NCBI GenBank assembly: GCA_028821265.1
Contig: JAPPGU010000005.1
Location: 1 to 42,165 of the forward strand
Source: a bacterium
GTDB taxonomy: Bacteria > Actinomycetota > Acidimicrobiia > Spongiisociales > Spongiisociaceae
Length of the DNA stretch: 42,165 bases
Reading direction: 5' to 3'
Shown: piece by piece, positions 32,084 through 39,448 of the stretch
How positions within the stretch are numbered: the stretch's first letter is position 1
How the letters are laid out: each line of letters starts with the position of its first letter
Notes under the pieces: model-generated
What the model was told of the DNA's origin: nothing
Database searches by the model: none
Seen by the model: the letters and a program-made list of their open reading frames with translations, nothing else
Made by a program: the position numbers and the translations under genes

Positions 32084-32100
32084 TGGCCACCGGCTACTAG
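32080..32100. terminator. Bidirectional hairpin containing both stop codons
   Basis: CTAGTGGCC (32080-32088), a 3-nt loop ACC, then GGCTACTAG (32092-32100): nine pairs with one G-T wobble. It holds the TAG of glutamate dehydrogenase and, on the other strand, the TAG of the convergent nuclease gene. Confidence 0.55.
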
Positions 32101-33002
32101 TCGAGGGGTAGGTTGGGCTCCGGCTTGGCGTAGGCCTGGCCCTCCGGGCAGAGGTCCTGGAAGGCGCACCACCGGCACAGGGCTGACGGTTTGGGCGGGA
32201 AGTTGTCCCGCTCGATGGCCGCCCGGATGGTGGTCGACAGGGCCAGGAGTTGGCGCTCGATTCCGTCCAGGGTGTTGCGATCGATCTCGATCGAGTACAC
32301 GGTGGAGTTGCCCAGGTACATGAGGCGGAGCTCGGCCGGGGTCCGGCCCCTCTGCCGCTGCACCAGCAGGGCATAGATCTTGAGGGCGAAGAACGCCGGA
32401 AGGGCGAAACGCTCGGGTGGCGCGGCCCCGGTCTTGTAGTCGATGATGACCAGCTTTCCGTCGGGTCGCTCATCCATGCGGTCGAGGATGCCGCGCACCA
32501 CGATCTCCCCGAGGTCTTCGGCGAGCATGAGTTCCCGCTCGACCGGAGCGACCGAGGTCGGATCCTCCAGCCGGGTGTAGTTGGCCACCACGCGCAGGCT
32601 GTCGATTCCCCACTGCCGTTCGGCGTCCAGGTCCTCGAACAGACCGGAGTACTCGGGAGTGGCCCGCAGCGCGGTCCATTCCTCGCGGAACAGGTCGAAC
32701 AGGCGCTCCGGCGTTCGCTCCGCGGCGGCGAGATCGAAGAGGCGTTCCAAGGCCAGATGGGCGGTCGTGCCCCGCGCCTGCGGGGGCGTGACCGGCTCGG
32801 GCAGCCGGTCGATAGCCCGGAATCGGAAGAGCAGGGGACACTGTTTGAAGTCACCGGCGCGGCTGGGAGAGATGGTCTCGAGAACGGTCTCGGAGCTCGC
32901 AGCGGTCCGGTCCGCGCCGACCGGGGAGTCCGGCGTGGGTACGTTCTCGAACAGCGCCGGCTGCCGGGCCGCGGACTTCAACGATGACATGAGCAGGATC
33001 AT
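32097..33002 (-). CDS. Stand-alone RecB/Cas4-like PD-(D/E)XK nuclease
   Basis: A 301-residue protein equivalent to the C-terminal nuclease domain of RecB/AddB without a helicase. The catalytic core is VIIDYKTG, with upstream acid in GILDRMDE and a following ALKIYALLV helix. Four cysteines that likely bind a 4Fe-4S cluster are at 55 (FKQCPLLF) and about 276, 279 and 285 (CRWCAFQDLC), the same layout as in the two helicase-nucleases nearby. The first 35 residues look disordered. The start is uncertain: ATG 33002 or ATG 32990, neither with a clear ribosome site. No cas1/cas2 or repeats are near, so a role in DNA repair is more likely than CRISPR adaptation. Confidence 0.83.
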   Translation of the reverse strand: MILLMSSLKSAARQPALFENVPTPDSPVGADRTAASSETVLETISPSRAGDFKQCPLLFRFRAIDRLPEPVTPPQARGTTAHLALERLFDLAAAERTPERLFDLFREEWTALRATPEYSGLFEDLDAERQWGIDSLRVVANYTRLEDPTSVAPVERELMLAEDLGEIVVRGILDRMDERPDGKLVIIDYKTGAAPPERFALPAFFALKIYALLVQRQRGRTPAELRLMYLGNSTVYSIEIDRNTLDGIERQLLALSTTIRAAIERDNFPPKPSALCRWCAFQDLCPEGQAYAKPEPNLPLD

Positions 33003-33151
33003 AAAGACCGGCCATGACGCTGTCGCGATGCGGCGACCGGCCGCCTACCCGTCCGGCGGTCAGGTCGCGAAAATATCCGGGGGAGCGCGAAAAACTTGGC
33101 GCCAAACGGATAGTTGGATGCTGCCTGGCGGGGTAACTTGGTGTCAACCAA

Positions 33152-33567
33152 CCGGGGCAACCCGGTCGGGGAACCGGACCGGAGGGTCCGGATTCGGTAC
33201 TCAGGTACCGGATCCAAAACTTCGGAAAGGACGTTTCCTCGTCGTAGAGCAGCGATGTTATGGGACGAGGAGGCGGAGGCCCACGCCGGGCGGTGCTTCG
33301 GCCCCGTCCCAACGGGTCAGGGAGCCGAGGTGGCAGCAATGCCGCACCGGATCCCGAACCGCCGGCAACGGAGTCACGGTAAAACGTGGCATCGGCGCCC
33401 GGCTTACCGCCTGAGGGATGCGGTCGTAGCGATACGGCCAGGCATTCTTGAGGCGGAGAGGAGACGAGAAGCTCCTCAGCGCTTGAGCGGCGGCTGCCTT
33501 CGGGTGGCAGCGGTTGAAGCGCAAGGGAACCCCGAGAGGGCGCAAGCTCACTCGGGGTTTTCCTTTT
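33152..33567 (+). ncRNA. Structured non-coding RNA candidate with SRP-like core
   Basis: A gene-free stretch with a dense series of plus-strand hairpins: CCGGG-GCAA-CCCGG (33152-33165), GGTCGG-GGAA-CC.GACC (33164-33180), an 11-bp stem at 33190-33200/33205-33215, CCTCGTC/GACGAGG (33237-33243/33264-33270), GGTCGTA-GCGA-TACGGCC (33422-33439), GAGGAG/CTCCTC (33458-33463/33472-33477) and a UUCG-capped stem at 33493-33508. At 33285-33366 a long arm (GCCGGGCGG...TTCGG paired with CCGAA.CCGCCGGC) carries GGGTCAGG and GGCAGCA on opposite sides, like domain IV of SRP RNA. The usual GGAA apical loop is replaced by GAGGT. It ends in an intrinsic terminator, and no plus-strand protein gene exists upstream to need one. 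Boundaries are approximate; SRP identity is a guess. Confidence 0.5.
33528..33567 (+). terminator. Intrinsic terminator
   Basis: A perfect 9-bp stem AACCCCGAG (33528-33536) / CTCGGGGTT (33551-33559) with a 14-nt loop, followed by the T-rich run TTTTCCTTTT. It is the only classical hairpin-plus-T-tract terminator seen in this window and points along the plus strand. Confidence 0.85.
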
Positions 33568-33595
33568 GGACGGGTGCGGTTCGTCCCGTGGCCGT

Positions 33596-35194
33596 TCAGT
33601 TGATACGCCGCTCGCGGCCTGCCCACTCGCGGTCCCGCAGCACGAACTTCTGGATCTTCCCGGTCGAGGTCTTGGGCAGGCTGTCCACCATCTCGACCTC
33701 GTCTGGCGCCTTGAAAGCGGCGATGCGTTCCCGCACATGGTCGATGAGCTCCTCGGGTGACGCCGTCCTGCCCGCCTTGCGGACCACGAACGCCTTGGGG
33801 CGCTCGCCCCAGTGCTCATGCGGGACCGCGATCACCGCACACTCGAGCACCGCCGGGTGCGAGGCGATGGTCTTCTCCACCTCGATGGTCGAGATGTTCT
33901 CTCCCCCGGAGATGATGATGTCCTTGGAACGGTCACGCAGGTCGACATATCCGTCCGGATGCCATACCGCGATGTCCCCGGAGTGGAAGTAACCCCCTCC
34001 AAAAGCCTCATCCGTCCTCTCGGGGTTATCGAAGTAGCCCTTCATGACGTTGTTCCCGCGCATCACCACCTCTCCCAAGGCCGTGGCGTCCTGGGGGACG
34101 TCCTGCATCTGTTCATCCACCACCCGGGTGGGGTCGGCGATGATGAACGACACGCCCTGGCGGGCCAGGAACCGGGCGCGATCCTCCACCGGCATCTCGG
34201 GCACACCGGGCTGGAGCTCGCACACCGTGTGGGGGCCGTAGGTCTCCGTCAACCCGTACATGTGGACGATCTCGGCGCCCAGGCTCTCCATCACCTCGAT
34301 GATGGTGGGACTCGGCGGCGCCCCCGCGGTGGTGATGGTCACGGGCCGGGGGAAGGGATGGGCCTCTGGAGCGTTGGCGAGGCTGATGAGCACGGTGGGG
34401 GCGGCATTGAAGTGGGTGACCTTCTCGGAGTCGATCAGCGACCAGATCTCGGCCGGATCGACTCTGGGCGGGCATACATGGGTGCCGCCGATAGCGGTCA
34501 CGCCCCAGGTGGTGCACCAACCGTTGCAGTGGAACATCGGAAGCGTCCAGAGGTATACGGAGTCGGGAGAGTGGCGGGAGTGGATGATCTCGCCCAAGGC
34601 GTTCAGGTAGGCGCCGCGGTGCGTGTACATGACACCCTTGGGCCGGCCGGTGGTGCCCGAGGTGTAGTTGATCGAGATGGTCCGCTCCTCGTCGTCAACC
34701 TCCCACGGGAGCTGCCGGTCGGACCCGCGGGCCATGAACTCATCGAAGGGAGTGACCGGGAAACCGGCGCGATCTCCGGCACGGTCGATCCCCACGACCT
34801 CCGAAACGGTGGTGAGGCGTTCGGCGATGCCGGCGAGCCCGGCCAGCAGATGGGTCTCGCCGACCAGGAGCTTCGCTCCCGAATGATCGAGGATGTAGCG
34901 GATCTCCTGCGGCGAGAGACGCGTGTTGACGGCCACGAGCACCGCACCGAGAAGGGCAGGCGCGAAGTGAGCCATCAACATCTCCGGGATGTTGGTGCAG
35001 AGGAAGGCCACCCGATCCCCCGGACCCACGCCCGAGGCGGCCATGGCGTTCGCCATCCGGGTGGTCTGCCCGGCCATGCGGTCGTAGGTGATGCGCCGGT
35101 CACCGTCGACGATGGCGACCTTTCGCGGATAGACGAGCGCCGACCGTTCCAGGAACGACAGCGGTGTCAGTTCGGTCCGGTAGACAGCGGCCAT
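33596..35194 (-). CDS. Acyl-CoA synthetase (AMP-binding enzyme)
   Basis: A 532-residue adenylate-forming ligase that activates a carboxylic acid with ATP and transfers it to CoA. The ATP-binding P-loop TSGTTGRPKGV is near residue 180, the A5 motif MYGLTETYG and the A7/A8 motif YFHSGDIAVWHPDGYVDLRDR are present, and the catalytic lysine lies in PKTSTGKIQK near the C-terminus. The FHCNGW motif and overall length resemble the plant AAE/fatty-acyl ligase and DmdB-like branch; the acid is not determined. No ribosome site stands out. A second, distinct ligase lies 1.1 kb away on the plus strand. Confidence 0.88.
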   Translation of the reverse strand: MAAVYRTELTPLSFLERSALVYPRKVAIVDGDRRITYDRMAGQTTRMANAMAASGVGPGDRVAFLCTNIPEMLMAHFAPALLGAVLVAVNTRLSPQEIRYILDHSGAKLLVGETHLLAGLAGIAERLTTVSEVVGIDRAGDRAGFPVTPFDEFMARGSDRQLPWEVDDEERTISINYTSGTTGRPKGVMYTHRGAYLNALGEIIHSRHSPDSVYLWTLPMFHCNGWCTTWGVTAIGGTHVCPPRVDPAEIWSLIDSEKVTHFNAAPTVLISLANAPEAHPFPRPVTITTAGAPPSPTIIEVMESLGAEIVHMYGLTETYGPHTVCELQPGVPEMPVEDRARFLARQGVSFIIADPTRVVDEQMQDVPQDATALGEVVMRGNNVMKGYFDNPERTDEAFGGGYFHSGDIAVWHPDGYVDLRDRSKDIIISGGENISTIEVEKTIASHPAVLECAVIAVPHEHWGERPKAFVVRKAGRTASPEELIDHVRERIAAFKAPDEVEMVDSLPKTSTGKIQKFVLRDREWAGRERRIN

Positions 35195-36106: not shown

Positions 36107-36180
36107 ACCTGATCGGTTGATCGCTTCCTTGTGGCTCTTAGGCGTGTTGGGTGTCCGGGTCGTTCCCGTGTCACAGCATC

Positions 36181-36271
36181 CACTGACCACTGACCACTGA
36201 CCACTGACCACTGACCACTGACCACTGACCACTGACCAATGACCAATGAGCACTGACCATCGACCACCGAC
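36181..36271 (+). repeat. Heptad tandem array (CACTGAC)n
   Basis: Thirteen 7-bp units in register: eight perfect CACTGAC, then CAATGAC, CAATGAG, CACTGAC, CATCGAC and CACCGAC. The array lies between the reductase gene and an acyl-CoA ligase, ending 66 bp before the ligase start. Decay at the right edge fits growth from the left or middle. Confidence 0.95.
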
Positions 36272-36337
36272 CCAGCACTACCATCCGGTGTCTGTCCGGA
36301 GGCAGCGTGGCGGTCTGCCCCGGTAGAGGAGGATTCG

Positions 36338-38920: not shown

Positions 38921-39448
38921 TTGGTCCTGTTCTTCTCGTTGCTGAGCCTGCTGGCGCTGGCGGCTTGTCTCGGGCTGGTCGCGATGGTGGCCCGCCCCGG
39001 TCTCAGAGCAACCGCGGTACGCGAGCTGGGCAGCTACGCCCTTCCGGTGGCGGTGACGGTGGCGACGGTGTCGACCCTCGGCTCGCTGTACCTGTCCGAG
39101 GTGGAGGGGTTCGTTCCCTGCCTGCTCTGCTGGGTGCAGCGAGGGTTCATGTACCCGCTGGTGCTGCTCCTGGCCTGGGCGATCGCCAAGCCGAATCGGG
39201 CGGTCCAGTTGCTGGTGCTCGTCATGTCGATCGGTGGCGCCCTCACCGCCGCCTACCACTACGGGGAGCAGCAGGGATGGTGGGGCGGATCCGAGGAATT
39301 CTGCTCGGCGGAGGCGCCCTGTACCTTCATATGGGTTCAACAATTCGGGTTCATGTCGATACCCTTCATGGCGTTCACCGGTTTCTGCCTCATTGCCCTG
39401 CTGGTGGCACTGCAGATGAGCAGACCGGCTCGAACCACCGCCCACTAA
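38921..39448 (+). CDS. DsbB-like disulfide oxidoreductase
   Basis: A 175-residue membrane protein with about four to five predicted segments. The redox pairs typical of DsbB/BdbC are visible: CLLCWVQR (CxxC near residue 62) and CSAEAPC near residue 128. Such proteins pass electrons from an extracytoplasmic thioredoxin partner to quinones. The start is TTG 38921. A thioredoxin-like protein with a membrane anchor follows 15 nt downstream, a likely functional partner. Confidence 0.88.
   Translation: MVLFFSLLSLLALAACLGLVAMVARPGLRATAVRELGSYALPVAVTVATVSTLGSLYLSEVEGFVPCLLCWVQRGFMYPLVLLLAWAIAKPNRAVQLLVLVMSIGGALTAAYHYGEQQGWWGGSEEFCSAEAPCTFIWVQQFGFMSIPFMAFTGFCLIALLVALQMSRPARTTAH

Follow-up and report, generated by a model that had tools for sequence, protein, structure and literature searches.

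Does the stretch of some 415 nt that separates two minus-strand protein genes in an Acidimicrobiia contig encode an RNA of its own and, if it does, is that RNA already known? The window analyzed was the whole 42,165-nucleotide stretch of contig JAPPGU010000005.1 (assembly GCA_028821265.1). A first-pass annotation had marked positions 33152-33567 as a structured RNA locus ending in an intrinsic terminator, and had left the choice between a divergent SRP RNA and a new RNA. Sequence and comparison together indicate that positions 33147-33563 of the plus strand are very probably a stand-alone gene for a non-coding, structured RNA of an uncatalogued family, with a start predicted from the -10 hexamer and an end predicted from the terminator. 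The locus as first marked was confirmed as an RNA locus, but its promoter extends further out, to a pair of CGCGAAA sites at 33066-33092 and a -10 hexamer at 33134-33139.

The RNA gene in its own genus

Upstream of the RNA gene, on the minus strand, lies a gene for a RecB-like PD-(D/E)XK nuclease (32097-33002; PF12705, E 7.5e-37), which is its neighbor across the order. The Cas4 profile PF01930 scored just under its cut-off on this protein (21.4 of 22.7 bits). Downstream, the convergent neighbor throughout the genus is an AMP-binding enzyme gene (33596-35194, minus strand), which we take to be of the acyl-CoA ligase type. It had been argued from the nearest plus-strand gene upstream, a glutamate dehydrogenase gene, that the terminator must belong to a non-coding transcript; that attribution stood, but the nearest upstream gene proved to be the nuclease gene on the opposite strand. 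DNA matches to the locus were obtained in 13 of 99 genomes searched, namely the window's own, nine genus mates and, as short matches, G010, G038 and G049; in one of the genus mates (G009) the match was a short stretch at the terminator alone. The gene order recB (minus), RNA (plus), AMP-binding enzyme (minus) was kept in 10 genus loci and in G010, which belongs to the same family. Elsewhere in the window, an array of about 13 copies of the 7-nt unit CCACTGA (36180-36272) and a tRNA-Ser (GCT; 39093-39182) were observed.

The gene closes with a hairpin and T-rich tail at 33528-33567 on the plus strand (CCCCGAG-A-GGGC-GCAA-GCTC-A-CTCGGGG), which was supported by the sequence itself, by the genus alignment and by pattern searches. 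Nine perfect pairs join AACCCCGAG (33528-33536) to CTCGGGGTT (33551-33559); inside this stem are an A.A mismatch, four pairs (GGGC/GCTC) and a GCAA loop, and TTTTCCTTTT follows it. This is the perfect 9-bp terminator with a T-run that had been described at the outset, and its letters were invariant across the nine aligned genus sequences. A generic terminator scan, which admits loops of 3-8 nt, did not list the hairpin at 33528-33559 and found one other site versus 1.3 in shuffles; in our reading the scan misses it because the A.A mismatch probably spoils the stem.

The many stable stems initially claimed for the locus were borne out by folding. As RNA, positions 33130-33565 gave -252.9 kcal/mol against a shuffle mean of -188.7 (sd 5.6), a z of -11.5, with none of 100 shuffles as low. 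The genus alignment was built from nine of the ten genus genomes, the window included and G009 omitted as too divergent, and had a mean column identity of 90%; conservation became strong from roughly the -10 hexamer (TAACTT) onward, and the RNA was almost invariant in its 5' part. Its consensus fold holds 140 counted pairs in 16 helices with 98.3% of cells paired, compared with 34-51% when the partner was slid. Five of the 140 pairs, and nine cells, were changed on both sides, counts which were reached by 3 and 0 of 500 shuffles, respectively; further pair types were not above shuffles (338/500). Most of this covariation came from helix 15, a UUCG-capped hairpin at 33481-33520 (plus strand) in which 3 of 15 pairs were changed on both sides, and helix 9 added one such pair, changed in one sequence. 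A check for covariation had been proposed in the first-pass annotation; within the genus the support it lends to the fold is real but modest, because the sequences are close, and in a subfamily of short RNAs from elsewhere in the order, described below, it was strong. G008 (L023, about 2956) is missing a block of about 90 nt from the body; the sequence on either side is preserved, as though one hairpin module had dropped out.

That the transcript is instead the mRNA of a small protein is very improbable. A 292-aa frame (33114-33992) runs without a stop across the RNA both in the window and in the identical G001, and another frame is nearly open in G002 and G004 (0 and 1 stops, respectively), but the first frame carries at least one stop in each of the other seven genus sequences, in keeping with the original remark that the locus holds no protein gene. 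The near-open frames of G002 and G004 suggest that, with such a base composition, long open frames arise easily. Variable columns fell on the three codon positions as 27/140, 29/141 and 40/142 (8 rows), a distribution with no clear third-position bias, and the lengths of the RNA elsewhere in the family are very different.

Comparison with catalogued RNA families

The whole window was searched against Rfam 15, as had been advised, and no family reached its gathering cut-off; the same search of 20 further sites also returned none. At E up to 10, positions 33000-33650 gave three matches, all below threshold, the best of which was RF01999 (group-II-D1D4-2). At E up to 1, RF01999 was again the sole family to match in the loci of 20 relatives, and only at the locus of the window itself (L037). 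This likeness to domains D1-D4 of a group II intron amounts to 25.9 bits at 33176-33245, but the cut-off is 36 bits, the other 19 loci scanned did not show it, and the position of the gene is fixed and it comes with a promoter and a terminator. We consider the chance that the locus is a degenerate group II intron to be negligible.

The suggestion of a divergent SRP RNA was not supported. It had been drawn from the letters GGGTCAGG/GGCAGCA in one arm (33285-33366, plus strand), and in these few letters the bacterial small SRP RNA (RF00169) is indeed alike; the arm contains helix 9 of the genus consensus. However, RF00169 had no match in the window at the gathering cut-off or in 33000-33650 at E up to 10, and it was found over cut-off elsewhere in 8 of the 10 genus genomes. 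A standard SRP RNA was thus located for most of the genus, but none was over cut-off in G001 or in the genome of the window itself (84.6% complete). We regard an SRP identity as extremely unlikely.

Several other identities were considered. RNase P RNA (RF00010) had no match in the window and was found in 10 of 10 genus genomes, in the window's own at G000:C71. For tmRNA, neither RF00023 nor ARAGORN gave a match in the window, and the gene was found in 10 of 10 genus genomes, in the window's own at G000:C59. No Rfam families of the 6S type were listed for the window, for 33000-33650 or for the loci of the 20 relatives. Phage and plasmid records contained no DNA match to the locus; the terminator pattern had no occurrence in viral contigs, and a loose promoter pattern (site pair plus TTG) occurred in 15 viral contigs, none of which had the -10 at that place or the terminator within 1 kb. 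These results argue against a phage or plasmid origin. In sum, no catalogued family fits, and a limited literature search returned no published description.

A family with conserved ends across the order

A match to the recB neighbor was obtained in 126 of the 138 order genomes. For comparison, 94 loci were assembled from 80 regions beside recB and 14 other loci, a set which does not take in every genome of the order. At least one complete unit head-to-head with recB was present in 71 of the 94 loci, with 82 units in total; a CGCGAAA pair with at most one mismatch was present in 82 loci and the terminator in 76. With one Markov shuffle per locus the corresponding counts were 1/94 for the pair, 1/94 for the terminator and 0/94 for the complete unit. 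By the rules used, 23 of the 94 recB loci were without a head-to-head unit, and three of these (G023, G074 and G077) carry a unit which points towards recB.

In the window the predicted promoter begins with the CGCGAAA pair (33066-33072 and 33086-33092, plus strand, 13 nt between), the family's upstream promoter element, a similar pair being found near dnaA. The gap between the two sites was 13 nt in 62 of the 82 units and 14 nt in the remaining 20. A TTG begins exactly 18 nt past the second site in 65 of the 82, the offset at which the window has TAGTTG (33111-33116, plus strand), a poor match that is shared by its genus and is read here as the -35 position. A -10 of the form TANNNT was found at 41 nt in 47 units and at 42 nt in 29 (76 of 82 units); in the window this is TAACTT (33134-33139, plus strand), 41 nt past the second site. 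When the pattern was searched across the class with TTGNC at the -35, it was matched in 80 of 138 order genomes versus 1 of 257 other genomes of the class, and the reversed control gave a single match in all 395 genomes. None of the 10 genomes of the window's own genus matched the strict pattern, because their -35 is poor (TAGTTG); they do keep the pair and, 41 nt past it, the -10. Units which lie away from recB, or in tandem, had the same promoter layout as head-to-head units.

The strict terminator pattern was matched in 27 of 138 order genomes, and no match was listed for its reversed control. In a collection of 84,980 species it was found on 23 contigs, most of them titled Acidimicrobiia and others Acidimicrobiales, Acidimicrobiaceae, Actinobacteria or Actinomycetota, with one titled Acidobacteria and one titled simply bacterium. 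The RNA appears, then, to belong to a fast-evolving family that is confined, as far as searched, to one order of Acidimicrobiia. Because the body changes so fast, a sequence search alone would largely miss the family, and synteny, promoter and terminator are needed to find it.

The length of the RNA, measured from an estimated start set at a fixed offset to the terminator, ranged from 93 to 859 nt over the 82 units (quartiles 237, 330 and 455). The bodies of most families look unalignable between families, and in some bodies (G098, G118) a hairpin module is repeated in tandem. Folding of the 82 bodies gave a median z of -4.81, with 62 below -3 and 77 below -2; the opposite strand gave a median of -2.03 with 27 below -3, and the sense strand was the more extreme in 76 of 82. 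These values are non-independent tests because the units are related (81 of 82 distinct). Predicted hairpin loops in the 82 units numbered 708, of which 290 were GNRA and 167 UNCG (457, or 64.5%, versus 4.2% in shuffles); GNRA and UUCG caps had been noticed at the window locus at the outset.

Covariation was most evident in the short subfamily, where an alignment of 13 of the 20 short units could be made (4 of f3, 3 of f4 and 6 of f5; the seven omitted are of the other f3 type). In this alignment 92.5% of 519 cells were paired, and 21 of 40 pairs and 59 cells were changed on both sides. None of 500 shuffles reached either count, and slid structures gave at most 13 pairs and 23 cells. A covariance model (R1) was built from the 13 units. 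At E up to 0.1, 78 of the 94 sources, the model's own 13 included, had a match to it that was oriented as expected; against the window it scored 42.2 bits over 111 nt ending at the terminator. Many R1 matches, that of the window included, are short and stop at the terminator, and weaker opposite-strand matches are also present; as the matches end there, homology of the window's body with the short subfamily does not follow from them. An own promoter, an own terminator and a covarying structure, the marks of a stand-alone structured non-coding RNA, were all found computationally, and they support the initial proposal of a non-coding transcript with its own terminator and of a new RNA. The RNA would be unusual among stand-alone structured RNAs in that mainly its ends are conserved.

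Some arrangements in other genomes deserve mention. In G018 (L041, L055) RNA units stand in tandem with CGCGAAA pairs of their own and near-identical terminators. At L291 (f2), L288 (f8) and L301 (f3) RNA units lie away from recB, and the gene downstream of each encodes a small membrane protein that opens with MxYPxRLL; at L291 this protein has a bacterial PH domain (PF03703) and SHOCT. This is possibly a second conserved RNA locus.

The CGCGAAA site beside dnaA and nrdJ and the possible role of the RNA

In 12 well-assembled genomes, 31 exact CGCGAAA pairs were found (controls 0). Of these, 19 belonged to RNA genes, as classed by promoter geometry with the terminator seen in most, while five were at dnaA, four at nrdJ, one between rplI and dnaB and two at other places. 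Upstream of dnaA an exact pair was present in 29 of 30 loci, all of f2, with 0/600 in shuffles; the thirtieth (L311) is cut by a contig end that falls 308 nt before the match, so its missing pair is uninformative. With at most one mismatch allowed, the pair was upstream of dnaA in 15 of 20 loci of f1 and f3-f8 (shuffles 0/400), and four of the 20 were without a pair even at two mismatches; in the window's own genus it was found at one mismatch in 5 of 10 (shuffles 1/200). Upstream of nrdJ an exact pair was present in 27 of 30 loci (29 of f2 and one of f8 examined), but in none of 20 loci of f1 and f3-f8 and in none of 10 of the window's own genus at 0-1 mismatch. One example of each protein was identified: DnaA by TIGR00362 over cut-off and by PF00308, and NrdJ, a class II ribonucleotide reductase, by PF08471 and PF02867, its NCBIfam scores staying under the cut-offs for the whole protein, as they should for a piece of 420 aa. 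The rplI/dnaB pair (G030, L285) lies between the genes for ribosomal protein L9 and a DnaB N-terminal domain (Pfam) and faces away from both.

Three side observations were made in these regions. An intein-splicing model matched the DnaB piece of G030 below threshold (25.4 of 35.8 bits). Upstream of nrdJ at L255-L267, repeated boxes such as CCACAAGATGTTGTGG, presumably NrdR boxes, stand beside the CGCGAAA pair. Within the window's genus there is an intergenic repeat in which copies of CGCGAAAA about 21 nt apart are mostly followed by a CCGGTGCTTCGCACCGG-like hairpin and by a conserved stretch around GGTGCTTGGCGATAGGCAACGTAT...GTGTGACA (L058, L070, L074, L076, L078, L082, L084 and L087; more diverged at L063, L066 and L086); pairs of CGCGAAAA at three other places of the window's own genome (L066, L074, L081) showed no clear gene association.

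The promoter geometry that accompanies the pair differed between the genes. At the four nrdJ sites the distance to TTG matches that of the RNA promoter and the -10 does not, and at the dnaA sites neither -35 (TTG) nor -10 is at the RNA-type fixed distance. The comparison supports a site common to RNA, dnaA and nrdJ, at dnaA throughout the order though in places degenerate and at nrdJ in part of it, with the promoter geometry common only in part. A pair near dnaA without RNA-type promoter geometry would also be expected if the DNA mattered rather than the RNA, the pair controlling the divergent recB or replication and the transcript being a by-product. This explanation is quite improbable, given the rigid spacing to the -35 and -10 of the RNA, the retention of that layout in units away from recB or in tandem, and the structure and covariation kept in the transcribed part.

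We favor, with a probability of about one half, the reading that this gene stands alone and that its structured RNA, of a fast-evolving family, acts in trans, would be coupled by a regulator to replication or growth and would serve as a protein platform or sponge. Several parts of this reading are supported by the sequence and its comparison: the gene has a predicted promoter of its own in which two CGCGAAA sites keep a fixed spacing, the body is built as a chain of stable hairpins, the terminator hairpin is conserved, and the gene lies beside the RecB-like nuclease gene, mostly head-to-head with it. One regulator may bind the CGCGAAA pairs of the RNA, dnaA and nrdJ and so tie the RNA to DNA replication or growth. 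With less certainty than this regulatory step, the RNA could serve as a protein platform or sponge rather than by base-pairing with one fixed target, because in the bodies hairpins and tetraloops persist and the letters change, whereas in terminator and promoter the letters are kept; the conserved terminator hairpin might offer a handle for a protein. Protein-sequestering RNAs of the CsrB/RsmZ type are chains of hairpins with an own promoter and an intrinsic terminator. The family may resemble them in these same features, as a comparison of how such an RNA works; it differs in that its caps are mostly GNRA or UNCG and in having no Rfam match over cut-off. A protein-binding loop motif of the CsrB/RsmZ-sponge kind was not established, as the predicted loops are mainly GNRA or UNCG and yielded no single sequence motif.

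Many bacterial sRNAs with intrinsic terminators act by base-pairing with mRNAs, and the present RNA could likewise pair with mRNAs through single-stranded linkers, its hairpins serving for stability alone. A further point in favor is that the 5' part of the window's RNA is nearly invariant in the genus. However, the bodies look unalignable between most families while structure is kept, and base-pairing targets would need to change along with them; we find a base-pairing role rather unlikely. It is also improbable that the RNA binds RNA polymerase and stands in for 6S RNA in the order. 6S RNA has the shape of one long hairpin with a central bubble, whereas the fold predicted here is a chain of separate hairpins and no Rfam match of the 6S kind was obtained. 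The promoter site shared with growth genes speaks for such a role, as does the precedent of Ms1. According to an excerpt of the report on it (PMC9130861), this stand-alone, structured actinobacterial RNA was missed by homology searches and came to light through synteny. The same excerpt (PMC9130861) places a HAD-IB hydrolase gene next to Ms1, in contrast to the genes for a PD-(D/E)XK nuclease and an AMP-binding enzyme that adjoin the RNA gene here.

OLE, ROOL and GOLLD are large RNAs with conserved bodies, whereas the RNA described here, at 93-859 nt, has mainly its ends conserved. The likeness is that of orphan, highly structured bacterial RNAs, as the large, ornate OLE, ROOL and GOLLD are characterized in an excerpt of PMC12286853. 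What is new is an order-wide RNA gene family for which no locus scanned had an Rfam 15 match over cut-off.

To return to the platform or sponge reading, a more specific and tentative form of it can be put forward, in which the family is a replication-coupled RNA class with a conserved promoter and terminator hairpin and a body free in length and sequence so long as it forms a stable chain of tetraloop hairpins. Such an RNA might titrate or assemble a protein of the chromosome replication cycle under a regulator that would also govern dnaA and, for some members of the order, nrdJ. Through the site common to dnaA and nrdJ, a link between a non-coding RNA and chromosome replication in uncultured Acidimicrobiia becomes a question that can be tested, and the family provides numerous natural experiments in how much an RNA may lose and still keep its fold.
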